Positions 1 to 32,895 of a stretch of DNA of 40,110 nt are shown here, piece after piece (the first letter of the stretch is position 1; each line of letters starts with the position of its first letter). Source of the DNA: Prevotella sp. (GTDB lineage: Bacteria > Bacteroidota > Bacteroidia > Bacteroidales > Bacteroidaceae); assembly GCA_017619375.1 (NCBI GenBank), contig JAFZSL010000065.1, positions 1 to 40,110 of the forward strand, written 5' to 3'. The notes beneath the pieces are model-generated. The model ran no database searches, was not told the origin of the DNA, and saw nothing but the letters and a program-made list of their open reading frames with translations. Made by a program: the position numbers and the translations under genes.

Positions 1-2
1 AG

Positions 3-72
3 ATTGAAAATTGAAAATTGAAGATTGAAGATTGAAAATTGAAGATTGAAAATTGAAAATTGAAGATTGAAC
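3..72. repeat. Heptanucleotide tandem repeat (ATTGAAR)n
   Basis: Ten consecutive 7-bp units of the form ATTGAAA or ATTGAAG (the last is ATTGAAC) run without interruption. The array starts at the window edge, so it may extend further left. It lies in non-coding DNA beyond the 3' end of the SusD gene. A related heptamer array is found at 14564-14605. No function is assigned; slippage-prone intergenic repeats are the simplest reading. Confidence 0.9.
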
Positions 73-5772: not shown

Positions 5773-5837
5773 GGAGTTAACGAAGTTGGAGAAGTTAGCC
5801 TCGGAATGTGATTTGCAGAAGTTAACTTCTCTAACTT
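5773..5837. repeat. 9-bp tandem repeat (GAAGTTAAC-like) with inverted copy
   Basis: Units ggagttaac, gaagttgga and gaagttagc lie head to tail (5773-5799), and gaagttaac recurs at 5818-5826, exactly 27 bp later and therefore in the same 9-bp register. The array also contains an inverted repeat: aagttggagaagtta (5783-5797) pairs with taacttctctaactt (5823-5837) over 15 bp with one G-T pair and a 25-nt loop. It lies between the SusC promoter region and the dockerin remnant. Confidence 0.75.
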
Positions 5838-7475: not shown

Positions 7476-9517
7476 TTCGTATCTTTAAGGATGGCCGTCC
7501 AACCTCCTCCGCTGCTCAGATGGACGTTGAAGACATCATCTTTCCCTACCGTCTGCAGGGTATGCTTGTAGTCGGTGGCATCCTTCATGGCATTCACACC
7601 ATCGGCAAAGATATCAGCCTGATATCGACCATCCTTGAGAAATCCCAGATCGATGGTCAAGTCGCGTGGCGTCCAATCGGTCATGGCTGCCAGATACCAG
7701 GTGCTTCCCTTGCGACGGGCCACGACCGTATATTCGCCCAATTTTCCATCCAAGGCAATCGTCTCGTCGAAGGTGGTGGGTATCTGTGCGATGAAGTCGG
7801 TACATTCCTGGTTCTGCATGTATTCCGTGGGACTGTCGGCCAACATCTGCAGTGGTGCCTCGAAGGTGGTGTACATGGCCATCTGATGGACACGTGTACC
7901 CTGGCTCATGGGATGGTCGTTGTTGCCAAAAAAGTTGTTCTTCATGGCGTTCATCATAGCACCGGGGGTATAGTCCATAGGCCCCGCCAGCATGCGCAGA
8001 TAAGGCACCGTCACATCATAACGTGGCTGGTTGTGCAAAGGGCCGTCGCCATCTCGTGGCTCCCATTTCGAATTCTCCAACCCCTTGACCCCCTCAAAAT
8101 TGAAGATGTTGGGATAGGCACGCTGGATGCCGAAGGGTTTAAGACCATGGTAGTCAAGATAAAGATGGTGTTCTGCGGCACAGGCGGCTATCTTGTAGGC
8201 AGATGCTATGGCTTGCTGGTCGTCACGGTCGAAAAAATCCACCTTGAACCCCTTCACGCCCATCCCGGCATAATGTTTCATCACCTCGTTGGTGAGAGAC
8301 ATGTCGCCGTCAGGATTGTTGCCAATCAGGTTGCGCCAACTGCTCCACAAGATGATGCCCACACCCTTCTCCTGGCCATGGGCTATCAGTTTCTTCAGGT
8401 CAATCTCCGGACTCAGGTCTTCCATCAGCGATTCCTTGCCGCTCCATCCCTCGTCGATGATGATGTATTCTATCTTGTTCTTGGCGGCGAAGTCTATATA
8501 ATAAAGGTAAGTGTCGGTGTTCATACCCGACTTGAAATCGACACCCGTGACGTTCGTGTTGTTCCACCAGTCCCAGGCCACCTTGCCGGGATGTATCCAG
8601 GAGGTGTCCTTGATACGACACTCTGGAGCCAGCCGTTGCGCCATGTCACAGTTCAAGATGTCGGCATCCTTCTCTGCAATGACAACCGCACGCCAGGGCA
8701 GAGCACGACTTCCATTCAACTTGGCGATATACCCCGCTCTTTTCGTGGGTACGATGTTCAAATAGTCGAAGCCGTCAACCCCCTGCTCCAACGGATAGGG
8801 TGCAAATTCCGCCTTCAAGCCGTTCTGGCCATTGCTCTTGAGGAACATCCCCGGGTAGTCCTCCACCCCGGCATCCATCACGATGGCTTTCATCCCTCCC
8901 GGCAGACAGACGGCCAACGGCGTGATGGCCAGTGAATCCTTGAACATCTTCGACAGAGGCTGTTCGTCGTAATAGGACTCAAAACTATAGCAGTAGCGCT
9001 CACCGCCCCTGTTGTCGTTGACGTAGGGAATGAAAGCGGGATAGTCTTCCGCAAAATTGAACTCCGCCGTCTCATTGGTCACCACCGACACGTCTTTCCT
9101 GTCTATCAAGAAACGATAGGCCGCACCATCGTCATAGACGCGGAATTCCACACTGATGCCGTTTTTAAAAGCTAAGGTCATCGCGTTGTATTCATCCTTC
9201 ACCACCGCCTTTTTATAAAAAGGTGTGGCAAACTGCGACCTGACCTGCCTATTACCGACGGGCTTGCCTAATCCGCCTTTCTTGAAAACATGAATGTCGT
9301 CATCCAACAAGATGTTGATTTCCGAACACTTCAACACCGTTACGCCATTGTGCTCCACACGCCAATTCAGGAATGAATAATTGTGTGTCTCGACGATAAC
9401 CTGTGTCTTCTTGTCAGGAGACTCTATCTTCCAGTTCTTCCCTACACTAAGAGCTTGTGCACGAGAGCCTGCCATCATTAGAAGCAAGGCCACCATGCAA
9501 ATCTTGATTGCTTTCAT
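7472..9517 (-). CDS. GH97 family alpha-glycoside hydrolase
   Basis: GH97 enzymes remove alpha-linked sugars (alpha-glucosidase or alpha-galactosidase; one branch acts on beta-L-arabinopyranosides) in the periplasm. The chosen ATG (MKAIKI...) gives a normal signal peptide; an upstream in-frame ATG at 9535 adds MQHPKK. The N-terminal beta-super-sandwich contains KNWKIESPDKKTQVIVE, and the catalytic barrel contains KVAWDWWNNTNVTGVDFKSG, IIIDEGWSG, GFKVDFFDRDDQ and NFEGVKGLENSKW. The Asp in KVDFFD (433 counted from 9535) is at the place of the nucleophile of retaining GH97 members; the inverting SusB type uses glutamates instead. So a retaining, alpha-galactosidase-like activity is more likely than a SusB-like one. 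The C-terminal beta domain ends in VHLSSGGGWTAILKD. It sits in tandem between GH10 and GH28. Confidence 0.92.
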   Translation of the reverse strand: MKAIKICMVALLLMMAGSRAQALSVGKNWKIESPDKKTQVIVETHNYSFLNWRVEHNGVTVLKCSEINILLDDDIHVFKKGGLGKPVGNRQVRSQFATPFYKKAVVKDEYNAMTLAFKNGISVEFRVYDDGAAYRFLIDRKDVSVVTNETAEFNFAEDYPAFIPYVNDNRGGERYCYSFESYYDEQPLSKMFKDSLAITPLAVCLPGGMKAIVMDAGVEDYPGMFLKSNGQNGLKAEFAPYPLEQGVDGFDYLNIVPTKRAGYIAKLNGSRALPWRAVVIAEKDADILNCDMAQRLAPECRIKDTSWIHPGKVAWDWWNNTNVTGVDFKSGMNTDTYLYYIDFAAKNKIEYIIIDEGWSGKESLMEDLSPEIDLKKLIAHGQEKGVGIILWSSWRNLIGNNPDGDMSLTNEVMKHYAGMGVKGFKVDFFDRDDQQAIASAYKIAACAAEHHLYLDYHGLKPFGIQRAYPNIFNFEGVKGLENSKWEPRDGDGPLHNQPRYDVTVPYLRMLAGPMDYTPGAMMNAMKNNFFGNNDHPMSQGTRVHQMAMYTTFEAPLQMLADSPTEYMQNQECTDFIAQIPTTFDETIALDGKLGEYTVVARRKGSTWYLAAMTDWTPRDLTIDLGFLKDGRYQADIFADGVNAMKDATDYKHTLQTVGKDDVFNVHLSSGGGWTAILKDTK

Positions 9518-18240: not shown

Positions 18241-18294
18241 ATATTAGAGATACTAAGAATAATAGGGATGCTGGAGATACCAGGAGCACCAGAG
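18241..18294. repeat. 9-bp tandem repeat (ATACTAGRG-like)
   Basis: Six degenerate 9-bp units begin immediately after the QC stop codon: atattagag, atactaaga, ataataggg, atgctggag, ataccagga, gcaccagag. The shared core is ATACTAGRG. The array is untranslated and precedes the terminator. Confidence 0.7.
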
Positions 18295-18341: not shown

Positions 18342-18372
18342 GGTGCCGGCTCCATAAGGGTCGGCACCTTTT
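18342..18372 (+). terminator. Rho-independent terminator of the lrp-dipeptidase-QC transcript
   Basis: Arms ggtgccggc (18342-18350) and gtcggcacc (18360-18368) form a 9-bp stem with one imperfect pair and a 9-nt loop. Four T follow directly at 18369-18372. It lies 101 bases past the QC stop codon. Confidence 0.8.
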
Positions 18373-18419
18373 CATGATAGTTTTCGGAGTAGTCGGAGTG
18401 GTCAGGATGATAGGAACAG

Positions 18420-19122: not shown

Positions 19123-19194
19123 GGCTCCAGGTAATCCTAAGGCTACAGTAATTCCAAAGATACTAATAAATCCAAGGATACAAGTTTTCCCAAA
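19123..19194. repeat. 9-bp tandem repeat arranged as an 18-bp higher-order unit
   Basis: Eight 9-bp units alternate between two types. Type A is ggctccagg, ggctacagt, gatactaat, gatacaagt. Type B is taatcctaa, aattccaaa, aaatccaag, tttcccaaa. This makes four 18-bp A-B copies. The array starts five bases past the hemolysin III stop codon and fills most of the gap to the DUF4294 gene. Confidence 0.7.
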
Positions 19195-24393: not shown

Positions 24394-25725
24394 ATGAAGA
24401 AATTATACATAGAAACCTACGGATGCCAGATGAACGTCGCCGACAGCGAGGTGGTGGCCTCCGTGATGCAGATGGCCGGTTATGAAACCACCGACAAGGC
24501 GGAGGAGGCCGACGCCATCTTCCTGAACACTTGTTCGGTACGTGAAAACGCCGAGAACAAAATCTACCACCGCCTTGAGGTGCTCCACGGCGAGAACAAG
24601 CGCGGGAAAAAGCGCATCCTTGGCGTACTGGGCTGCATGGCCGAGCGTGTGCGAGAAGAACTCCTCGAGCACCACCACGCCGACCTCGTGGCCGGACCTG
24701 ACGCATACCTCAACCTGCCCGACCTCACGGCACAAGCCGAAATGGGCCTGAAGGCCATCAACATCGAACTCTCCACCACGGAAACCTATCGCAACGTGGT
24801 GCCGCAACGCATCGCCGGCAACCGCGTCAGCGGCTTCGTCAGCATCATGCGCGGCTGCAACAATTTCTGCCACTACTGCATCGTGCCTTACACCAGAGGG
24901 CGTGAACGTTCACGCGATGTGGAGAGCATCCTCCGCGAGGTGGCCGACCTGCAGCAACGCGGATTCCGCGAGGTCACCCTCTTGGGACAGAACGTCAACT
25001 CCTACCACTTCGCCAACGAAGGACGCGACATCGACTTCCCCAAACTCCTGCGCATGGTGGCAGAAGAAGCCCCCTCCATGCGGGTGCGCTTCACCACCTC
25101 GCACCCCAAGGACATGAGCGACGACACCCTCCGCGTCATCGCCGACACACCCAACGTGTGCCGGCACATCCACCTCCCCGTGCAGAGCGGCAGCGACAGA
25201 ATCCTGAAACTGATGAATCGGAAATATACTCGCGAGTGGTACCTTGGACGCGTGGAGGCCATCCGCCGCATCATCCCCGACTGCGGCCTCTCCACCGACA
25301 TCTTCGTGGGCTACCACAGCGAGACGGAGGAAGACCACCAACTCTCCCTCTCCCTCATGCAGGAAGTAGGCTATGACTCCGCCTTCATGTTCAAATACAG
25401 CGAGCGCCCTGGCACCTACGCCTCGAAACACCTGCCCGACAACGTGCCGGAAGAAGAGAAAATCCGACGTCTCAACCAACTCATCCAACTGCAGACGGAA
25501 CTGTCTGCCGAGGCCAACCGCCGCGACGTGGGAAAGACCTTCGACGTGCTGGTGGAAGGCTACAGCAAACGCTCACGCGAGCAACTCATGGGACGCAACG
25601 AACAAAACAAGGCCGTGGTGTTCGACAAGCAAGACCACCACATCGGCGACACGGTGAAGGTGCGCATCACCAGTTCCTCCAGCGCCACACTCCTCGGGGC
25701 TCCCGTCAACGACAATCATCTATAG
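24394..25725 (+). CDS. miaB: tRNA-2-methylthio-N6-dimethylallyladenosine synthase MiaB
   Basis: This radical-SAM methylthiotransferase adds the 2-methylthio group to i6A37 of tRNAs reading UNN codons. The product has 443 residues. The N-terminal UPF0004 domain has the cluster cysteines Cys11 (YGCQMN), Cys47 (LNTCSVREN) and Cys81 (GCMAERV). The radical-SAM core has Cys155-x3-Cys159-x2-Cys162 in GCNNFCHYC, followed by IVPYTRGRERSR. A C-terminal TRAM domain is at about 375-440 (KTFDVLVEGYSKRSREQLMG). The start at 24394 begins directly at MKKLYIETYGC; a longer open frame upstream overlaps the PAP2 gene and was rejected. Confidence 0.97.
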   Translation: MKKLYIETYGCQMNVADSEVVASVMQMAGYETTDKAEEADAIFLNTCSVRENAENKIYHRLEVLHGENKRGKKRILGVLGCMAERVREELLEHHHADLVAGPDAYLNLPDLTAQAEMGLKAINIELSTTETYRNVVPQRIAGNRVSGFVSIMRGCNNFCHYCIVPYTRGRERSRDVESILREVADLQQRGFREVTLLGQNVNSYHFANEGRDIDFPKLLRMVAEEAPSMRVRFTTSHPKDMSDDTLRVIADTPNVCRHIHLPVQSGSDRILKLMNRKYTREWYLGRVEAIRRIIPDCGLSTDIFVGYHSETEEDHQLSLSLMQEVGYDSAFMFKYSERPGTYASKHLPDNVPEEEKIRRLNQLIQLQTELSAEANRRDVGKTFDVLVEGYSKRSREQLMGRNEQNKAVVFDKQDHHIGDTVKVRITSSSSATLLGAPVNDNHL

Positions 25726-25803
25726 ATTGAGACAATAGAAGCCATAGATAACCATAGGAAATCCCTTGGATTACCAGCACCCATAGAAACTATAAAATAG
25801 CCA
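25726..25803. repeat. Degenerate CATAG-rich ~9-bp repeat
   Basis: The gap between miaB and the ABC transporter has repeated ATAG cores spaced at 9 to 10 bp (acaatag, gccatag, accatag, later cccatag and aaatag). The register is less regular than in the other arrays of this window. There is no terminator, so miaB may read through into the ABC transporter gene. Confidence 0.45.
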
Positions 25804-27633
25804 ATGAAAGAATTCCTGCAAGTGCTCAAGCGGTTTGTGCCGCCCTATAAGAAATACCTCGCCCTCTCGGTGCTGTTCAACATCCTCTCGGTGTTGCTCA
25901 ACATCTTCTCCTTCGCCGCCCTCGTGCCCATACTGCAAATCATCTTCAAGACAGGAGACACCGAGACGGCTACCGCCCTCATGGCGTGGGACTGGGAGAA
26001 CGCCAAGGAAGTGCTCACCAACAACATGAACTACTATGTCAACCAGATGATCAGCGAGTTGGGGGCGAGCACCACCCTCCTCCTCATCGGACTGTTTCTC
26101 GCCTTCACCACCATGCTCAAGACAGGAGCCTATTTCCTCTCCTCCGCCACCATCATCCCCATCCGAACCGGCGTGGTGCGCGACATCCGCAACCAACTCT
26201 ACCAGAAAATCACATCGCAATCGCTGGGATTCTTCTCCGAGGAGCGCAAGGGCGACATCATCGCACGAATGAGTGGCGACGTGCAAGAGGTGGAGAACTC
26301 CATCATGTCGTCGCTGGAGATGATCTTCAAAAACCCCATCCTCATCATAGGCTACTTCATCGTGCTCCTGCTCATCTCCTGGCAACTCACCCTCTTCACC
26401 CTGCTCATCGTCCCTGTCATGGGATGGTTCATGGGCATGGTGGGCAGGAAACTCAAACGGAAGTCCATCAAGGCGCAAGCCCTATGGAGCGACACGATGA
26501 GCCAGGTGGAGGAAACCCTCGGAGGACTGCGCATCATCAAGGCGTTCTGCGCCGAAGAGAAGATGAACGCCCGCTTCGACCGCATCAACACCGCCTATCG
26601 AAACGACATCATGAAGGTGAACATCCGACAGTCGATGGCACATCCCATGAGCGAGTTCCTTGGAACAGTGATGATCGTCATCGTGCTCTGGTTTGGCGGC
26701 GTCCTCGTGCTCAACAACCAAACCCTCTCCGGGCCACTCTTCATCTACTACATGGTAATGCTCTACAGCATCATCAACCCGCTCAAGGACTTCTCCAAGG
26801 CTGGATACAACATCCCGAAAGGACTCGCCTCCATGGAACGCGTGGACAAGATACTCATGGCGGAAATCGATATCAAGGAGAAGGAAAATCCCACGCACAT
26901 CAACGGATTCAACCATGAGATAGAGTTCCGACACGTCTCCTTCAAATACGGACAGCAATGGGTGCTGCAAGACATCTGCCTCACCATACCCAAGGGAAAG
27001 ACCGTGGCACTCGTGGGACAGAGCGGAAGCGGGAAGTCCACACTCGTGGACCTCATACCGCGATATTATGACGTGCAGGAAGGACAAGTGCTCATCGACG
27101 GCATCGACGTGCGTGACCTCGGACTGCACGACCTCCGTCAACTCATAGGAAACGTCAACCAAGAGTCCATCCTCTTCAACGACACCTTCTTCAACAACAT
27201 CGCCTTCGGCGTGGCCAACGCCACCCAGGAACAGGTGGAGGAAGCGGCACGCATCGCCAACGCACACGAGTTCATCATCGCCACCGAACAAGGTTACGAC
27301 ACCTCCGTGGGCGACCGCGGCGGACGACTCTCCGGAGGACAGCGACAACGTGTGAGCATCGCTCGCGCCATACTGAAAAACCCGCCCATCCTCATCCTCG
27401 ACGAAGCCACCTCGGCCCTCGACACCGAGAGCGAACGACTGGTGCAGGACGCCCTCGAACGACTGATGAAGACTCGCACCACCGTGGCCATCGCCCACCG
27501 GCTCTCCACCATCCGCAACGCCGACGAAATCTGCGTGCTCCACGAAGGACGCATCGTCGAAAGAGGCACACACGACCAACTGCTCGCCGCCGACGGCTAT
27601 TACAAGAAACTTCACGACATGCAAGCCACATGA
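25804..27633 (+). CDS. MsbA-like ABC exporter (permease-ATPase half transporter)
   Basis: The 609-residue protein joins an ABC type-1 exporter membrane domain (about 18-340, six helices such as YLALSVLFNILSVLLNIFSF) to an ATPase domain (about 360-605). The latter has Walker A GQSGSGKST (405-413), Q-loop NVNQESILF, signature LSGGQRQR, Walker B ILILDEATSALD and the H-loop in VAIAHRLSTI. Such half transporters work as homodimers. The intracellular segment GFFSEERKGDIIARMSGDVQ is typical of MsbA and related lipid flippases. Its stop overlaps the start of the LpxL-like acyltransferase gene by four bases, which supports a role in lipid A or other envelope-lipid export. A drug or peptide exporter is the alternative. 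Confidence 0.93.
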   Translation: MKEFLQVLKRFVPPYKKYLALSVLFNILSVLLNIFSFAALVPILQIIFKTGDTETATALMAWDWENAKEVLTNNMNYYVNQMISELGASTTLLLIGLFLAFTTMLKTGAYFLSSATIIPIRTGVVRDIRNQLYQKITSQSLGFFSEERKGDIIARMSGDVQEVENSIMSSLEMIFKNPILIIGYFIVLLLISWQLTLFTLLIVPVMGWFMGMVGRKLKRKSIKAQALWSDTMSQVEETLGGLRIIKAFCAEEKMNARFDRINTAYRNDIMKVNIRQSMAHPMSEFLGTVMIVIVLWFGGVLVLNNQTLSGPLFIYYMVMLYSIINPLKDFSKAGYNIPKGLASMERVDKILMAEIDIKEKENPTHINGFNHEIEFRHVSFKYGQQWVLQDICLTIPKGKTVALVGQSGSGKSTLVDLIPRYYDVQEGQVLIDGIDVRDLGLHDLRQLIGNVNQESILFNDTFFNNIAFGVANATQEQVEEAARIANAHEFIIATEQGYDTSVGDRGGRLSGGQRQRVSIARAILKNPPILILDEATSALDTESERLVQDALERLMKTRTTVAIAHRLSTIRNADEICVLHEGRIVERGTHDQLLAADGYYKKLHDMQAT

Positions 27634-28562
27634 AAATCGCCTACCGAATCACACGCGCACTGCTGTACCCGATATCGCTTCTGCCCTTCCGGGTGCTCTA
27701 TGCCATCTCCGACTGCCTCTACGTCCTGCTCTACCACGTGGCAGGTTACCGCAAGAAACTGGTGAGGCACCATCTCGAAACCTGCTTCCCGGAAAAGGAC
27801 AAGAAGGAGTTGAAAAACATCGAACGAGGGTTCTATCACTTCCTCTGCGACTATTTCCTGGAGGCCCTCAAACTCCTCTCCATCTCGAAAGAGGAAATGC
27901 TGAAGCATGTCGAACTGCGGGGTATGGAAGACATACAACAATGCTTCGACGAAGGACAGACCTGTGCCGCCATGATGGGACACTACGGCAACTGGGAATA
28001 CCTCACCACACTCAGATTAGGGTGGCCAAGGCATCCCGATGCCATTGAAGCCTTCATCTACCACCCCCTGTCAAACGATGTCTTCGACCAACTCTTCATC
28101 GACCTGCGCCAACACTTCGGAGGCGTCTGCGTACCCAAGAAAGACATCCTGAGATATCTTCTCAACTGCCGTCGCGAGGGGACGAAATTGCTCACAGGAT
28201 ACCTCTCCGACCAAACACCCAAGTGGACCAACATCCACCTCTGGCTCGACTTCCTTGGTCACGACACACCGGTGTTCACCAACGGCGAGAAACTGATGCG
28301 GAAGATGAACAACGCCGTCTTCTACGTCGACATGCAACGGCCGAGAAGAGGCTACTACATCGCTGACTTCAAACTCATCACCAAGACTCCCAACGAGATG
28401 GAGGAGAACGCCATCACCCGACGCTTCTTCGAAATGCTTGAGGAGAACATCCGTCGCGACCCACGCTTCTATCTATGGACCCATAACCGCTGGAAGCGCA
28501 CCCACGAAGAATTCGACCGACGTTTCAAGGTGGTCAACGGGAAAGTCATACCAATCTCGTAA
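27630..28562 (+). CDS. LpxL/HtrB family lipid A acyltransferase
   Basis: The 310-residue inner-membrane acyltransferase belongs to the lipid A biosynthesis (lauroyl/myristoyl-type) family. The start MKIAYRITRALLYPISLLPF is the usual membrane-anchoring segment. The catalytic H-x4-E is His118-Glu123 in MMGHYGNWEYLTTL, followed by the conserved DQTPKW segment (YLSDQTPKWTNIHLWLDFLG) and FYVDMQRPRRGYY. It likely adds a secondary acyl chain to lipid A or to a related lipid. Translational coupling (ATGA overlap) with the upstream ABC transporter suggests a lipid modification and export pair. Confidence 0.9.
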   Translation: MKIAYRITRALLYPISLLPFRVLYAISDCLYVLLYHVAGYRKKLVRHHLETCFPEKDKKELKNIERGFYHFLCDYFLEALKLLSISKEEMLKHVELRGMEDIQQCFDEGQTCAAMMGHYGNWEYLTTLRLGWPRHPDAIEAFIYHPLSNDVFDQLFIDLRQHFGGVCVPKKDILRYLLNCRREGTKLLTGYLSDQTPKWTNIHLWLDFLGHDTPVFTNGEKLMRKMNNAVFYVDMQRPRRGYYIADFKLITKTPNEMEENAITRRFFEMLEENIRRDPRFYLWTHNRWKRTHEEFDRRFKVVNGKVIPIS

Positions 28563-28569
28563 TGCAGGC

Positions 28570-28609
28570 CCCGCAATCCCGTAATACCGTTATATCGTTA
28601 TCCCGCAAC
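28570..28609. repeat. 8-bp tandem repeat (CCCGTAAT-like)
   Basis: Five 8-bp units follow the acyltransferase stop: cccgcaat, cccgtaat, accgttat, atcgttat, cccgcaac. The array fills most of the 91-bp gap before upp. Its unit length differs from the 9-bp arrays at other gaps. Confidence 0.65.
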
Positions 28610-28653
28610 AACATCACAACAACAATAGCCACCTTTAAAAAAGTCAACAAGAT

Positions 28654-29313
28654 ATGAAAATCATCAACCTCAGCGACAACAACAGCATCATCAACCAATA
28701 CATGGCTGAGATTCGCGACAAAGACTACCAGAAAAGCCGCCTGCTTTTCCGTAACAACATCATGCGCATCGGCGAGATGATGGCTTACGAAATCTCAAAA
28801 ACCCTCAATTATGAGACTCGTGACATCGCCACGCCACTCGGCATCGCCAAGGTGAACGTGCCCACCGACAAAATCGTGCTCGCCACCATTTTCCGTGCCG
28901 GACTGCCCTTCCACACCGGCTTCCTCAACATTTTCGACCACGCCGGCAACGCATTCGTCAGCGCCTACCGCGAATATGTGGACGAGGAACACCACAAGGT
29001 GGGCATACACGTGGAATACCTGGCTACACCAAGCATCGACGAGAAGAACCTCATCATAGCCGACCCCATGCTCGCCACAGGAGGAAGCATGGAACTGGGC
29101 TATCAGGCTTTCCTCTCCAAAGGCACACCGAAGCGCATCCATGTATGCTGCGTCATCGCCACGCCGGAAGGCATCGACCACATCCGACGCACCATGCCCG
29201 ACGAGAAGACCACCGTCTGGTGCGCCGCCATCGACCCCGGCATGAACGAGCACAAATACATCGTCCCTGGGTTCGGCGATGCCGGAGACCTGTGCTTCGG
29301 GGATAAGCTATAG
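28654..29313 (+). CDS. upp: Uracil phosphoribosyltransferase
   Basis: This cytosolic salvage enzyme makes UMP from uracil and PRPP. The product is 219 residues, normal for the family. It shows the N-terminal segment TRDIATPLGIAKV-like region, the PRPP-binding loop LIIADPMLATGGSM at about 129-142, and the uracil-binding C-terminal motif YIVPGFGDAGDLCFG. It appears to be a single-gene unit between repeat arrays; convergent with the AlkZ-related gene. Confidence 0.96.
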   Translation: MKIINLSDNNSIINQYMAEIRDKDYQKSRLLFRNNIMRIGEMMAYEISKTLNYETRDIATPLGIAKVNVPTDKIVLATIFRAGLPFHTGFLNIFDHAGNAFVSAYREYVDEEHHKVGIHVEYLATPSIDEKNLIIADPMLATGGSMELGYQAFLSKGTPKRIHVCCVIATPEGIDHIRRTMPDEKTTVWCAAIDPGMNEHKYIVPGFGDAGDLCFGDKL

Positions 29314-29325
29314 TCTTTTGCCAAG

Positions 29326-29388
29326 GGTTCTAGTTTTCCTAGAGGCTCTAGTTTTCCTAGAGCACCTAGAGCCTCCTAAGACCTCCTA
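29326..29388. repeat. 9-bp tandem repeat (NNTCCTAGA-like)
   Basis: Seven contiguous 9-bp units separate the convergent upp and AlkZ-related genes: ggttctagt, tttcctaga, ggctctagt, tttcctaga, gcacctaga, gcctcctaa, gacctccta. Units two and four are identical. This is the clearest of the 9-bp arrays in the window. The array may take the place of a terminator, as no T-tailed hairpin is obvious here. Confidence 0.8.
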
Positions 29389-29402
29389 AAAAATCCTATC
29401 CC

Positions 29403-30140
29403 CTATGAAAAAATCTTTTTCAAGCGCTGCTCTTCCACCCTAGGGAGGAGCTGCTTGAAATGTGCCATCAGCCGTAGGTGGGATTCCTCCGGCGTGCGGT
29501 CGCAACGGCAGGCGTCACGCCCGTAAAGTTGTTCGGGCGTGGTGAGCAAGGACCAGCCCCAGCCATATTCGCGGTTGTGCCTGTCACGAGGATAGACGAA
29601 ATCCTCGGTGACGATGCGGCAGCCCATCTGCAAGCGGGTGACGTAGGCATCGAAACGGCTGCGCATCTTCGGTCCCGTGAAACCACAAGCCGCACGCAAC
29701 TCCCTCGTAATCAGACTGCCATGCTCCTGCAAGGTGAGGAGGATGGCTTCCTCCACAGACCCTTCCTCCGGAGCGGGATGCTTGTGGCGGCGGTAGTTGC
29801 AGAAGTCGGGCCACCACGCTCTGCTGACAAAGCCGGCATGCTTGTCGAAGAACTTGCCATAGACACAGCCTCCGTCGGTGACCACCGGCCCTTTCCATTT
29901 CCACAAAGGCCAGTCCCATCCTCCGTCGGGAAGCCACACATAACGGCAGTCGGAAGCCACCATCTCCTCGGCGGAAAAACCACGTATGCCGCTTTGGAGC
30001 AGAGGCAAGAAGCCCACCTTCTCCACCAACTCAGCCAACTGCGTGGCATTATGAATTTCGAGGGAGGATAGGGAGTATAAGGAGACTTGTGTTCCTTGAG
30101 ATTCTGGATTTTCTATAGAATCCATAGGGTCTTTTGCCAT
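29403..30140 (-). CDS. AlkZ-related winged-helix DNA-binding protein
   Basis: The 245-residue product resembles AlkZ/YcaQ-related proteins of Bacteroidales, related to interstrand crosslink-repair glycosylases. Visible are HNATQLAELVEKVGFLPLLQ, FSAEEMVA, WDWPLWKWKGPV, GCVYGKFFDKHAGFVSR and, in the C-terminal half, a winged-helix segment EEAILLTLQEHGSLITRELR then LQMGCRIVTEDFVY. It may be only a small relative, since full AlkZ proteins are longer and carry a QxQ motif that is not seen here. The ATG at 30140 was chosen; the frame reaches back to 30194 but that extension reads through a repeated palindrome. The first ~28 codons coincide with a degenerate 9-bp repeat, so the N-terminus may be a recent addition. 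Confidence 0.7.
   Translation of the reverse strand: MAKDPMDSIENPESQGTQVSLYSLSSLEIHNATQLAELVEKVGFLPLLQSGIRGFSAEEMVASDCRYVWLPDGGWDWPLWKWKGPVVTDGGCVYGKFFDKHAGFVSRAWWPDFCNYRRHKHPAPEEGSVEEAILLTLQEHGSLITRELRAACGFTGPKMRSRFDAYVTRLQMGCRIVTEDFVYPRDRHNREYGWGWSLLTTPEQLYGRDACRCDRTPEESHLRLMAHFKQLLPRVEEQRLKKIFS
30061..30130. repeat. Degenerate 9-bp repeat within the 5' coding region of the AlkZ-related gene
   Basis: Read on the minus strand, 9-mers such as ggattctat, agaaaatcc, agaatctca, agtctcctt, atactccct and atcctccct follow one another, echoing the CTCCTA/CTAGA units of the neighbouring intergenic array. Nine is a multiple of three, so the repeat stays open and is read as SIENPESQGTQVSLYSLSS-type sequence. 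The repetition is weaker than in the intergenic arrays. Confidence 0.45.
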
Positions 30141-30161
30141 ATTATTTATTTTTTTGGGGGG

Positions 30162-30190
30162 ATACGGGAAGAATCCCGTATCTGCAGTGC
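30162..30190 (-). repeat. REP-like palindromic element, copy 1
   Basis: An 8-bp palindrome with arms atacggga and tcccgtat around a 4-nt loop (30162-30181) is followed by ctgcagtgc. The minus-strand sequence matches 32921-32947 at 24 of 27 positions. It lies between the CE12 stop and the AlkZ-related start. Confidence 0.7.
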
Positions 30191-30209
30191 ACACTGCTAT
30201 GATTTTGTG

Positions 30210-31403
30210 TCAATTTCCATCAGGCTTCTTCACGTCCTTCACCTTGGCGTCATACCAGCGGAAGGCGGCGGGGTCGTCGGGTGAGGCTGGGTCGTAACCC
30301 GGCCAGTCAGGCCTCAGGCCCTTCAAGAAAGGCAGGTTGAGGCGCTGCATTCCAGCCACCACCATCTTCGCCACCTCGTAGGCACCATAGGGGTTGAAAT
30401 GGGTATTGTCGGCCAAGGCCTTGTCCTGCCCCGGATAAGTGTTGGCGGGATAATGCACAAGGGCTTTCTTGCTCCCCTCGAAACCCAGGGTCTCGAAGAA
30501 GGTGCGCGTCATGCTGTTGAGGTCGATGACCGGCACCCCCTCGCGCTCCGCCACGCTGAGCATGGCGGCGGGGAAGTCGCCGTGCGTGTCCTTGAGATGG
30601 ATGTTGTCATCCTGCCATGCCCTCCTCTGCGTGGGAGTGCAAAAGATGATGTGCCCCCCGGCCTGTCGCACTTTGTCGATAAAGATTTTCAGGTTGTACA
30701 CATAATGATACCACGCACCGTCGCCAGGACGTTTCTCCTTCTCATCGTTATGGCCGAATTCGCACACTACGTAGTCGCCGGGCCGCATCATGGAGAGGAT
30801 TTTCTCCAGACGGTTGCCACCGAGGAAGGTTCGCGCGGTGAGACCGCTCTCGGCATGGTTGGAGATAGCCACGGAGGAGTCGAACCATCGTGTGACCATC
30901 TGTCCCCATGAAGCCCACGGCTCACTGTCCTGGTCCACCACGGTGGAGTTGCCACAGAGGAAGATGGTGGTCGCCGTGGTGTCCGGTTCGATTTTGATGC
31001 GGGTGACGGCCGGTGCGGCACCATTGAACTCCAATGTCAGGCTATCGTCCCAGTTGAGGTAGTCATACTCGCGCTCCTTCAGTTTGACACGCTCCTCCCG
31101 CATCCCCTTGTCGGTGGCGACGGCATAGACGGGCGACCGCTTGTTGACGACAAAGGAATAGTCCACCGACTGCCCCTTCCGTGTGGCGGCGTTCTCCACC
31201 ATCAGGCGTCTGGATTCCGCCCTTACCACGGTCTCCGCCTTCCGTTTTTTACTGCCGAGGGTGACGGTGACGAGATAGTTGCCGTCGGGCACCTGCACGG
31301 AGAAATACTGCGGACTGCTGATGCTAACGTCGAACGTGCCGGTCTGCGCCATGGCTGGCAAGGCCGCCATGCAAACCGCAGCAAGGATATGTCTTTTTTT
31401 CAT
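30210..31403 (-). CDS. CE12 rhamnogalacturonan acetylesterase (SGNH hydrolase)
   Basis: This exported esterase removes acetyl groups from galacturonate in rhamnogalacturonan-I so that lyases and hydrolases can act. The 397-residue product has a signal peptide (cleaved at Ala19, leaving Gln20). An N-terminal beta-rich domain (about 25-140; SPQYFSVQVPDGNYLVTVTL) precedes the SGNH domain: block I FLCGNSTVVD with nucleophile Ser153, HAESGLTARTF (Gly oxyanion), FGHNDEK (Asn), and block V DNTHFNPYGA with Asp332 and His335. The order and spacing fit CE12. It starts 6 bp after the rhamnose mutarotase stop codon, and they share the promoter near 31.9 kb. The PL11 lyase lies 1.6 kb beyond on the opposite strand. 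Confidence 0.9.
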   Translation of the reverse strand: MKKRHILAAVCMAALPAMAQTGTFDVSISSPQYFSVQVPDGNYLVTVTLGSKKRKAETVVRAESRRLMVENAATRKGQSVDYSFVVNKRSPVYAVATDKGMREERVKLKEREYDYLNWDDSLTLEFNGAAPAVTRIKIEPDTTATTIFLCGNSTVVDQDSEPWASWGQMVTRWFDSSVAISNHAESGLTARTFLGGNRLEKILSMMRPGDYVVCEFGHNDEKEKRPGDGAWYHYVYNLKIFIDKVRQAGGHIIFCTPTQRRAWQDDNIHLKDTHGDFPAAMLSVAEREGVPVIDLNSMTRTFFETLGFEGSKKALVHYPANTYPGQDKALADNTHFNPYGAYEVAKMVVAGMQRLNLPFLKGLRPDWPGYDPASPDDPAAFRWYDAKVKDVKKPDGN

Positions 31404-31409
31404 AGCCGT

Positions 31410-31727
31410 TCAGTCAAGGTGGAACACTTCCTCGATAGGCACGGTGACAGGGGAGTTGTCGTCGTTCACCTCCATGATGTCGGCCATCATGTCCCACCAT
31501 TTCTGGGTGACAGGGTCCACGTCGGTGGTGTCCTGGCTGTTGGTGTCGCTGCTGCACTCCTGGTAGCCGAAAAGAATGTTGGTGTCCTTGTCCCAATAGA
31601 TGCTGTAGTTGCTCACACCGGAGTCTTTTATCATCTTCACCAACTCCGGCCAGATGGCGGCGTGGCGCCGGGCGTACTCCTTCTCACAACCCGGCTTGAG
31701 GAACATCTTGAATGCAAATCGTTTCAT
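31410..31727 (-). CDS. rhaM: L-rhamnose mutarotase
   Basis: This small cytoplasmic enzyme interconverts alpha- and beta-L-rhamnose, feeding rhamnose released from rhamnogalacturonan into isomerisation. The 105-residue size is normal for the family. It shows MKRFAFKMFLKPGCEKEYAR, then RHAAIWPELVKMI with the catalytic-region histidine, SNYSIYWDKDTNILFGYQEC and the C-terminal KWWDMMADIME followed by PIEEVFHLD. It is first in the operon with CE12. No rhamnose isomerase or kinase is in the window, so the rest of the pathway lies elsewhere. Confidence 0.93.
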   Translation of the reverse strand: MKRFAFKMFLKPGCEKEYARRHAAIWPELVKMIKDSGVSNYSIYWDKDTNILFGYQECSSDTNSQDTTDVDPVTQKWWDMMADIMEVNDDNSPVTVPIEEVFHLD

Positions 31728-31748
31728 AAGTTTTTAGGTTTTTATAGG

Positions 31749-31811
31749 TCGGACTCGTCGAATTCGTCAGACTCATCAGACTAATCGGACTCGTCAGACT
31801 TGTCAAGCTAT
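31749..31811. repeat. 9-bp tandem repeat (TCRGACTCG)
   Basis: Seven 9-bp units run head to tail in the leader upstream of rhaM: tcggactcg, tcgaattcg, tcagactca, tcagactaa, tcggactcg, tcagacttg, tcaagctat. Units one and five are identical. The array lies between the rhaM start codon (31727) and its predicted promoter (31891), so it would be transcribed in the 5' untranslated region. Confidence 0.85.
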
Positions 31812-31890
31812 CTCATGCAAAGGTACACATAAGCGAGCGGAAAGCCAAAAATTATTTTGAACTTTTCGGGCGAAGTACCTTGGGCGAAGC

Positions 31891-31922
31891 CAAAGATAGG
31901 CTTTTTTCTGAAAAACAACAAA
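31891..31922 (-). promoter_or_regulatory. Promoter for the rhaM-CE12 operon
   Basis: On the minus strand this reads TTTG (31922-31919), 20 bases, then TATCTTTG (31898-31891). Both boxes match the Bacteroides consensus and spacing. It is the best promoter in the window. The leader to the rhaM start would be about 155 nt and includes the 9-bp array. Confidence 0.75.
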
Positions 31923-32048
31923 TCAACGTGGAAAAACAACCGATTTTCCATCACTCGGACTGATTTGCAAGCATCCAGCAGCAAATATCGAGTTTGAACA
32001 AAACACCATGGATGTGGTCAAATTCAAAGACACAAAAAATAGCCGCGC

Positions 32049-32083
32049 TTTGACCTCATCATCAAATATTTTAATTATCTTTG
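32049..32083 (+). promoter_or_regulatory. Candidate promoter for the zinc-ribbon gene
   Basis: TATCTTTG at 32076-32083 is a full -7 match, 32 bases upstream of the ATG. A TTTG at 32049-32052 is present but 23 bases away, slightly long. It is divergent from the rhaM-CE12 promoter. Confidence 0.55.
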
Positions 32084-32115
32084 CAAAAAATAAAACCTAA
32101 ACAACTTTAAAACAC

Positions 32116-32895
32116 ATGGCACTCATCAAATGCCCGGAATGCGGGAACATGATTTCTGACAAGGCTGCCCAATGCCCCAGATGCGGCTGTCCAGTGGGAA
32201 ATGCCGGCGTACAGCAAGATACAAGCGACGCACGTGCAAGGTATGAAGATAATGATCGCACACGCATCATTTATGAGAAGAGGAGCAATACCAACAAATG
32301 GTTGTATGCCGCCATCGCCTTGCTGGCAATAGCCTTGCTTGGTGGCGGCACCTATTTCTTCATGAACAAGAATAAAGGCAACGACACTTCTGTTGAGAAT
32401 TATACTGAAGACGTTCCTGCCACCACTACCGTCGACATTAAAAAGGATTCTCCGGCCCCGGCACCCATCGAGCAGCAAGTTCCGGCCACAACCCCGGCAC
32501 CCGCCACGAAAGAAACACCGGCAACCACTTCGTCACCCGTCGAACGGGAAGAACCTGCCACAGTCGTCACTCCCGTCCAAAGGAACAAAGTATCCAACGG
32601 CTTCTACCGTCTCAATGGCTCCATCACATACAAGGAAACCTATTTTGTCGACATGGAGGTCAATGTGAATGGCAACAAGGCGACCGGACGGTATATCGTG
32701 CATAACGGAGAGAACATGTATGTGAACCTCTCCGGTTCCATCGATGCCAATGGCAACATGAAACTCACGGAATACAAAGGCGGGCAACCCACAGGTTATT
32801 ATTTCACTGGCAAATTCAACCAGGTTACATACTCCGGCAAATACCTCTGTACCTACAAGAACCTTCCGATGAGATTCTCGGTGTCAACCTACTGA
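32116..32895 (+). CDS. Zinc-ribbon membrane protein with Pro/Thr-rich linker
   Basis: The 259-residue protein has three visible parts. A cytoplasmic zinc ribbon lies at 3-26 (Cys6, Cys9, Cys20, Cys23 in CPECG...CPRCG). A single transmembrane helix is at about 62-82 (WLYAAIALLAIALLGGGTYF). A proline, alanine and threonine-rich linker (about 105-155) leads to a C-terminal beta-rich domain at about 158-259 (GFYRLNGSITYKETYFVDME; GRYIVHNGENMYVNLSGSID). No signal peptide precedes the ribbon, so the N-terminus should stay in the cytoplasm and the C-terminal domain should face the periplasm. The function is unknown. It sits between CE12 and the PL11 lyase but shares no obvious operon with either. 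Confidence 0.8.
   Translation: MALIKCPECGNMISDKAAQCPRCGCPVGNAGVQQDTSDARARYEDNDRTRIIYEKRSNTNKWLYAAIALLAIALLGGGTYFFMNKNKGNDTSVENYTEDVPATTTVDIKKDSPAPAPIEQQVPATTPAPATKETPATTSSPVEREEPATVVTPVQRNKVSNGFYRLNGSITYKETYFVDMEVNVNGNKATGRYIVHNGENMYVNLSGSIDANGNMKLTEYKGGQPTGYYFTGKFNQVTYSGKYLCTYKNLPMRFSVSTY

Follow-up and report, generated by a model that had tools for sequence, protein, structure and literature searches.

Intergenic heptamer repeats have been described in Xanthomonas (GGGAATC) and in Nostoc (GGGGA(C/T)T); according to the parts of that account considered here, the majority of the Xanthomonas heptamers are located between the same genes in two species and are extensively variable in length and sequence (PMC4692102). 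Direct repeats of TAACTGA are reported from Beggiatoaceae, Cyanobacteria and five Bacteroidetes in the sections consulted of another paper, which also describes the long simple-sequence repeats of 1-11 nt that Mrazek and co-workers found in prokaryotes (PMC4679880). In Porphyromonas gingivalis, a member of the Bacteroidales, the MITE minisatellite BrickBuilt is presented, in the excerpt considered here, as an intergenic tandem array with 19 copies in one strain (PMC4596501). For Prevotella, our literature search, from which most subscription papers were outside, found no description of CTAG or 9-bp arrays. The initial annotation of the DNA analyzed here knew of no established name for such arrays, yet their general kind is that of the long simple-sequence repeats, a kind that we take to be also called short tandemly repeated repetitive sequences (STRR). 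The cyanobacterial STRR belong to the same general class as the long simple-sequence repeats.

The window, i.e. the whole stretch of DNA that was analyzed, is an entire contig of 40,110 bases from a Prevotella genome of 4.26 Mb in 78 contigs. Its nearest named relatives, according to the uracil phosphoribosyltransferase, are RUG13201 and RGIG6036, two rumen/omasum Prevotellaceae assemblies. Twenty proteins of the window were scanned and are ordinary where matched (SusC/SusD, GH28, M19 and M28 peptidases, RNB ribonuclease, haemolysin-III-like protein, radical SAM-TRAM protein, ABC transporter, lipid A acyltransferase, uracil phosphoribosyltransferase, AlkZ-related protein, GDSL lipase, rhamnose mutarotase, YhcG-type nuclease and others), and these annotated neighbors bear out the initial statement that no mobile gene is linked to the arrays. 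Neither an Rfam match at the gathering threshold nor a tRNA was found in the window.

Seven arrays of 9-bp units, each with its own consensus, had initially been listed. Each listed stretch was compared with its own dinucleotide shuffles, the best period from 5 to 20 being taken. Five of them exceed their shuffles (p = 0.002 for 18241-18294; p = 0.001 for each of 19123-19194, 29326-29388, 31749-31811 and 30061-30130), but 5773-5835 (p = 0.23) and 25726-25803 (p = 0.27) do not on their own, although the latter is backed by orthologous arrays in the related loci L024 and L025. In the listed arrays, 37-70% of the positions match at lag 9, so that their units fall short of near-perfect repetition; some arrays of sister species are cleaner. 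A lag of 18 bp outscores 9 in the arrays at 18241, 19123 and 29326.

The array at 29326-29388 lies between the convergent genes encoding the uracil phosphoribosyltransferase and the AlkZ-related protein. It harbors CTAG-N5 units, with five intact CTAG at exact 9-bp steps (29330-29369) and an 18-bp higher-order repeat, followed by a worn CCTA tail. Worn CTAG-type 9-bp units are found at 18241-18294, directly 3' of the stop codon of the M28 peptidase gene, and a worn CTAG array with an 18-bp higher-order repeat occupies 19123-19194. The CTAG core that several arrays were said to share is therefore intact or worn in these three, but it is replaced by TCGGA/TCAGA-N4 in the 9-bp array at 31748-31811, between a rhaM-like gene and the gene at 32116, and by a worn (CT)ATAG in the 9-bp array at 25726-25803, which fills the gap from the stop codon of the radical-SAM/TRAM gene to the start codon of the ABC transporter gene. 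Two further arrays had escaped the initial annotation: an 8-bp CCCGTAAT array at 28570-28624, upstream of the uracil phosphoribosyltransferase gene, and a short 9-bp TCGGA-N4 array at 18384-18403. The possible 9-bp GAAGTTAAC array at 5773-5835 is not beyond chance alone over periods 5-20 and has no counterpart by eye 3' of the GH28 orthologues, in the flanks of 8 relatives in which gene order is presumed. The stretch 30061-30130, taken as an intergenic array at first, is in fact a coding repeat on the minus strand: it lies inside the N-terminus of the AlkZ-related gene 29403-30140 (-), whose protein starts MAKDPMDSIENPESQGTQVSLYSLSSL versus MAKDAPYSIESLASR in L024, and this in-frame 9-bp expansion is without counterpart in the sister species L024 and L025. 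A 7-bp ATTGAAR array at 1-71 reaches the contig end. Since two contig ends lie within repeat arrays (window 1-71 and L120 3794-3872), arrays may be the cause of some assembly breaks in these genomes.

The repeats are not confined to the window. The own-genome sample consisted of the window itself and 32 other stretches (615,513 of 4,261,907 bases); genes were called for the lag-excess scan with our own ORF and codon-score caller, a nonstandard annotation with which some "gap" arrays may be coding. Stretches picked for having CTAG arrays (L006-L012 and most of L104-L123) were omitted from the lag-excess, array-per-gap and density counts but were included in the counts of CTAG spacing, column conservation, gene context and linker similarity. 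In the gaps of this sample, 9-bp periodicity is commoner than in shuffled gaps, with a lag-9 identity excess of 0.0249 (z = 18.8), the largest among lags 2-30 except lag 3. Lags 8, 10 and 11 are also in excess, as are lags 6 (0.0160) and 12 (0.0117), the excess at multiples of 3 being probably inflated by missed coding sequence. At a score of 15, 34 of the 321 gaps carry an array, compared to 0.2 per shuffle. The 38 arrays have periods of 7 (n = 6), 8 (n = 1), 9 (n = 7), 10 (n = 5), 11 (n = 10), 12 (n = 2), 13 (n = 2) and 18 bp (n = 2), with one each at 19, 21 and 22 bp. Repeats thus occur across the sampled genome, and the emphasis initially put on 9 bp is justified in that this period is prominent, but it is one of several, units of 7, 10 and 11 bp being also common. 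Likewise, the units differ between arrays as claimed, but they fall into recurring families (CTAG-N5, TCGGA-N4, GGAGTTAAA-N2, TAACG-N3 and ATTGAAR).

The clearest case of change at a fixed site is the gap downstream of the M28 peptidase gene, which consists of the stop codon, a first array, a hairpin, a second array and the next gene. The hairpin (18342-18372), followed by TTTT, is terminator-like and is not itself an array; the short TCGGA-N4 array at 18384-18403 lies on its far side. The first array is of the worn 9-bp CTAG type in the window, of an 8-bp TAACG-N3 type in L184 and L185 (protein identities of 85% and 86%), with unbroken runs of 3 and 9 units, respectively, and of the CTAG-N5 type in L190 (71%), where the units begin inside the M28 stop codon and the hairpin is missing. 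By eye, it is absent from the other seven of the ten relatives, including L186 (79%) and L187 (76%); in L191, the gap apparently carries a G-rich TGAGGGG-like repeat. The second array differs in copy number among the window, L184 and L185, with 8 intact TCGGA units in L184 and 2 in L185, and no such array was seen by eye in L186 and L187. The hairpin stem is present in L184 and L185 and also in the array-free L186 and L187, the L187 hairpin being without a T-run 3' on this strand.

This arrangement bears on the reading of the arrays as transcription terminators or mRNA-stabilizing hairpins, which we hold to be very improbable. CTAG arrays do fold better than their shuffles (mean best z of -3.3 for 14 arrays), as do gaps with 9-bp arrays (-4.3, n = 6) and with 7-bp arrays (-3.4, n = 6), and some Prevotella arrays form inverted pairs. 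However, array-free control gaps fold well too (mean best z of -2.35 in 60 gaps, half of them below -2), gaps with 11-bp arrays do not (-0.75, n = 10), and the hairpin of the M28 site is separate from the arrays and kept in two array-free species. No terminator-like site was found at the arrays within 25600-32200 of the window. Inverted pairs of short arrays are frequent within one spacer (L036, L038, L067, L076, L077, L081, L088 and L124), with, by eye, the purine-rich arm first and the pyrimidine-rich arm second in these eight loci.

Still less credible is the idea that the arrays are rows of back-up in-frame stop codons, CTAG holding TAG on both strands and a 9-bp step keeping the frame. 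In four of the 16 own CTAG clusters, the outermost CTAG indeed contains the stop codon of the gene itself. Nevertheless, where a gene ends no more than 40 bp away, only one third of the nearest TAGs (8 of 24, those four included; phases 8/8/8) are in frame with it, and where it ends at 40-150 bp, 4 of 20 are (phases 4/11/5).

Other orthologous gaps also differ between species. L024 and L025, which come from RUG13201 and RGIG6036, are collinear with the window over 22.6-35.3 kb, with 86-91% DNA identity in all blocks except one of 338 bases at 76%. In both, the arrays at 29326, 25726 and 31749 have orthologues with the same or a similar core but with other copy numbers and linkers. Within the L024 orthologue of the 29326 array, the period passes from 10 to 9 bp, and the 31749 orthologues have a GTCGGAC core. 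The 25726 gap contains a regular ACTATAGAG-type array in L024 and about 3 units in L025; nine further rows were compared, of which L035 was unusable, and in all eight usable relatives the gap measures -4 to 49 bp and shows no array by eye. The gap at 28570 carries the 8-bp unit in the window versus a 10-bp CCTAGAACTT array in L024. In the 19123 gap, L184 has a largely intact CTAG array with CTAGTTTTC/CTAGGGATA units, of which that of the window is a worn version; no array was seen by eye there in L186 and L187. This comparison of orthologous gaps shows that copy number is variable between species.

The initial annotation had left the choice between a repeat-making process acting on spacers and a family of regulatory spacers. 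The former agrees with the finding that orthologous spacers differ in copy number, in period and even in unit, while others are without an array. We favor, with somewhat more confidence than doubt, the explanation that the arrays are degenerate, fast-evolving minisatellites of short units that arise, are resized, switch unit and decay in weakly constrained spacer DNA, apparently without any strong function. Short tandem duplications, mostly of 7-12 bp, would arise there and change in copy number, probably by polymerase slippage, the typical slot in the window being bounded on one side by a stop codon and on the other by whichever conserved feature follows, either a hairpin resembling a terminator or the leader of the downstream gene. 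Local re-amplification of variant units could then give the 18-bp higher-order repeats, the shifts from 10 to 9 bp and the replacement of units at a fixed site, before point mutation would wear the arrays down. In some Prevotella lineages, the CTAG-N5, TCGGA-N4 and GGAGTTAAA-N2 units would have reached numerous spacers, ectopic copying from one array to another being the simplest route. Several components of this scheme are observed directly: (i) the excess over shuffles, (ii) the restriction of the CTAG and GGAGTTAAA families to some lineages, (iii) the separation of arrays and hairpin, and (iv) differences between orthologous gaps, in which arrays are present or absent, vary in copy number, switch unit and decay.

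In the CTAG arrays of the genome of the window, linker similarity is 0.465 at a distance of one unit and 0.629 at a distance of two, versus 0.359 between arrays, and this peak two units apart is what local duplications of one unit or two at a time would give. The values for P. bivia point the same way (0.596 and 0.639 versus 0.374), but three other genomes taken together disagree (0.467 and 0.380 versus 0.428), their linkers being hardly more alike within arrays. The shift from 10 to 9 bp in L024 fits small indels with subsequent re-amplification and speaks against a strict lattice, whether helical or set by a protein. Runs of neighboring linkers shared between arrays are no more frequent than in permuted order (2 versus 5.7 in the own genome, 6 versus 7.3 in P. 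bivia and 0 versus 0.9 in the three others), so that there is no direct trace of block copying. Purely local slippage leaves unexplained the same cores at many unlinked spacers and in distant species. It also counts against the minisatellite reading that CTAG-type arrays occur at the same stop codon of the M28 gene in the window and in L190, with species that lie between them by identity and are array-free.

The spread of the unit families differs from one family to another. CTAG-N5 occurs at 72 places in the genome of the window, compared to 0 for the reversed pattern, and in 54 of 100 genomes of the genus, that of the window included (reversed control, 0 to 5 places per genome). Among the named relatives, in which 50 of the 80 named loci were covered by this count, it was found in 28, at up to 361 places, although some close relatives, L027 and L032 for instance, have none. 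Of 292 genomes from other genera, five contain it, at 1-3 places each, the reversed control reaching 15 places in one genome. The spacing between CTAG in own clusters (n = 85) is 9 bp in 68 cases, 10 bp in 13, 8 bp in two and 18 bp in two. In the unbiased own sample, the six 4-mers that lead at 9 bp do not include CTAG, which thus represents one family among several. The genome of the window has 143 places with the 11-bp GGAGTTAAA-N2 unit, G049 has 305 and G027 has 28 (control, 0); overall, this unit is present in 5 of the 100 genomes of the genus. TCGGA-N4 matches in 22 of these 100 genomes, but its reversed control matches in 31; at least 5 places are found in 11 genomes (17 in the own genome, 45 in G049) versus two for the control (5 in the own genome, 6 in G090). 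In the roughly 11 of 100 genomes that have it frequently, this family therefore exceeds its control and is real; at lower counts, its matches do not stand out from those of the control. An exact GTCGGACNN triple was discarded as a probe of the family because it was too strict (2 of 100 genomes, 0 places in that of the window), and TCGGA-N4 was used instead.

The CTAG family is nearly restricted to the genus, but short arrays in general are not. Array density was compared in small samples, from which L166 and L178 (very short) and L176 and L183 (chosen because of the 11-bp unit) were also omitted. Per 10 kb of gap, it is 4.5 in the own genome, 2.2 in CTAG-free and 13.4 in CTAG-bearing genomes of the genus, 9.3 in the 80 named loci, 1.6 in other genera of the family, 5.0 in other families of the order and 5.0 in other members of the class (six of eight arrays with a 7-bp unit). 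In this count, as in the analyses of 8-bp and 22-bp arrays, inverted pairs, strand, column conservation and leading 4-mers, the gene calls were greedy longest ORFs, likewise a nonstandard annotation under which some supposed gap arrays may be coding. Degenerate tandem arrays with a 22-bp unit abound in the named Prevotellaceae loci (41 arrays in the 80 loci; many loci of L041-L102) and are found outside the genus too (5 stretches' worth), with a consensus that, by eye, varies between species. L015 carries, at 8166-8300, three head-to-tail copies of an element of about 54 bp in which GGAC recurs every 9 bp and which also has a stretch with GCGCC; pieces related to this element are present elsewhere in L015 and in L011.

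The recurrence of the same cores could suggest that each array is a row of sites bound by a nucleoid protein or by a regulator that recognizes DNA or RNA, the core of 4-5 bp being the putative site and the linker being free. This reading is unlikely, in our opinion, but it has points in its favor. The linkers that accompany the recurring cores are diverse (39 different 5-nt sequences in 67 own 9-bp units), CTAG-N5 is found in more than half of the genus genomes (54/100), the spacing is mostly 9 bp, and conservation is uneven between columns (p < 0.05) in 3 of 12 own 9-bp arrays, 2 of 5 own 10-bp arrays and 8 of 25 8-bp arrays of relatives. This unevenness could reflect selection on cores, in a test inflated by the shared ancestry of units. 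Conversely, linkers were counted after selection of exact CTAG, so that the conservation of the core is partly by construction, and CTAG ranks below the six leading 4-mers of the unbiased sample. Moreover, periods from 7 to 12 coexist, there is no consistent orientation rule, the neighboring genes are unrelated and mostly housekeeping, and two arrays of the window, those at 18241 and 19123, have decayed cores. The initial proposal of a family of regulatory spacers meets the same difficulties: the strand of the arrays follows no consistent rule relative to gene direction, only 4 of 45 CTAG clusters lie in divergent gaps, and the two decayed sites are ones at which relatives keep arrays. A related and improbable proposition is that CTAG-N5 and TCGGA-N4 constitute genus-specific multi-site DNA tracts that would be actively seeded next to genes, separate lineages using the same stop codon, and read or written by a putative factor, the core being functional and the linker and period being free.

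The species-specific, high-copy units, such as GGAGTTAAA-N2 (143 places here, 305 in G049, none in 95 of 100 genomes), could also be taken as the product of a dedicated repeat-writing enzyme, for instance a reverse transcriptase adding short repeats at breaks. Reverse transcriptase PF00078 is found in seven of 10 CTAG-rich genomes versus four of 10 CTAG-free ones, and in the genome of the window. It is missing, however, from three of the 10 CTAG-rich genomes, one of them with 113 CTAG places, and the different unit families of one genome would need different templates, which makes this origin highly improbable.

With respect to genes, 48 of 49 CTAG clusters are not wholly within a called gene. 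After removal of identical arrays seen twice, 16 CTAG clusters lie in convergent, 25 in co-directional and four in divergent gaps (n = 45), the comparison being made with the gap bases of the own genome only. Taken together, these CTAG clusters do favor gene 3' ends, but own clusters alone (two, 12 and one, respectively; n = 15) show no such preference. Arrays of all periods in the own sample (six convergent, 22 co-directional and six divergent; n = 34) are close to the gap bases, so that a general preference for gene 3' ends is unsupported. Strand composition follows no consistent rule relative to gene direction, and the annotated neighbors of arrays are unrelated, mostly housekeeping genes.

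In P. bivia, 10 of 18 CTAG arrays are gathered within 33 kb (p <= 5e-5), among genes that are of core type where scanned (10 proteins); this clustering is left unexplained by the minisatellite reading and counts against it. Several P. bivia arrays (L104-L108, C3 1.52-1.63 Mb) are located inside composites made of a heptamer arm (GAGAGTT)n, the CTAG array and an inverted arm (AACTCTC)n, some of which share a ATGCCCGTCC-like flank. Clustering, inverted arms and shared flanks are what argues for the arrays being the internal minisatellite of a mobile miniature element (a MITE, a BrickBuilt-like element or a REP moved by a RAYT transposase), an alternative that we nonetheless consider improbable. 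The 16 own CTAG clusters have neither common flanks nor terminal inverted repeats by eye, and transposition alone does not account for the changes of copy number and of unit that are found at fixed sites. The IS200-type transposase PF01797 has 0 matches in the genome of the window and is found in six of 10 CTAG-rich and three of 10 CTAG-free genomes. A RAYT/IS200-type (Y1) transposase was accordingly rejected as a requirement, being missing from some array-rich genomes, that of the window included.

If the arrays are minisatellites, as we favor, comparisons between sister species with the same gene order and different arrays in the same gap allow one to read directly how bacterial minisatellites are born, change in size, replace their units and decay, and this in a major genus of the gut and rumen. 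They also warn that spacers of this sort may show recurrent cores at a regular spacing without being regulatory. Furthermore, the arrays could serve as fast strain markers.

Overall, the kind of repeat is known, but we found no description of a 4-5 bp core joined to a free linker, of several periods within a single genome and of units that are switched at fixed sites. Like the long simple-sequence repeats and STRR, the arrays consist of short tandem units beyond chance, are often intergenic, belong to a slippage-prone class and vary in copy number between species; those definitions, in the part of the sources considered, rest on near-perfect units, whereas the arrays of the window are mostly too worn. 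Like the TAACTGA repeats, they are short, dispersed between genes, patchily distributed and without an evident transfer mechanism, but TAACTGA, in the sections consulted, is one exact heptamer located mostly just upstream of start codons in the main genome studied, and the present units are degenerate and otherwise placed (PMC4679880). BrickBuilt has, in the excerpt considered, a 23-bp unit, a leader, a tail and inverted-repeat ends (PMC4596501), while the listed arrays of the window have units of 9 or 18 bp and none of these parts was seen there. A likeness in lineage-specific short tandem repeats of spacers, with inverted arrangements and with slippage under discussion, exists with the heptamers of Xanthomonas and Nostoc (PMC4692102). 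These are described, in the parts of the report considered here, as 7-bp, G-rich and quadruplex-prone, unlike the several 7-12 bp units with a free linker, and the unit switching at fixed sites, of Prevotella (PMC4692102). Among the heptamer traits tested, again those given in the same parts of the report, the arrays of the window share all except the perfection of their units (PMC4692102).
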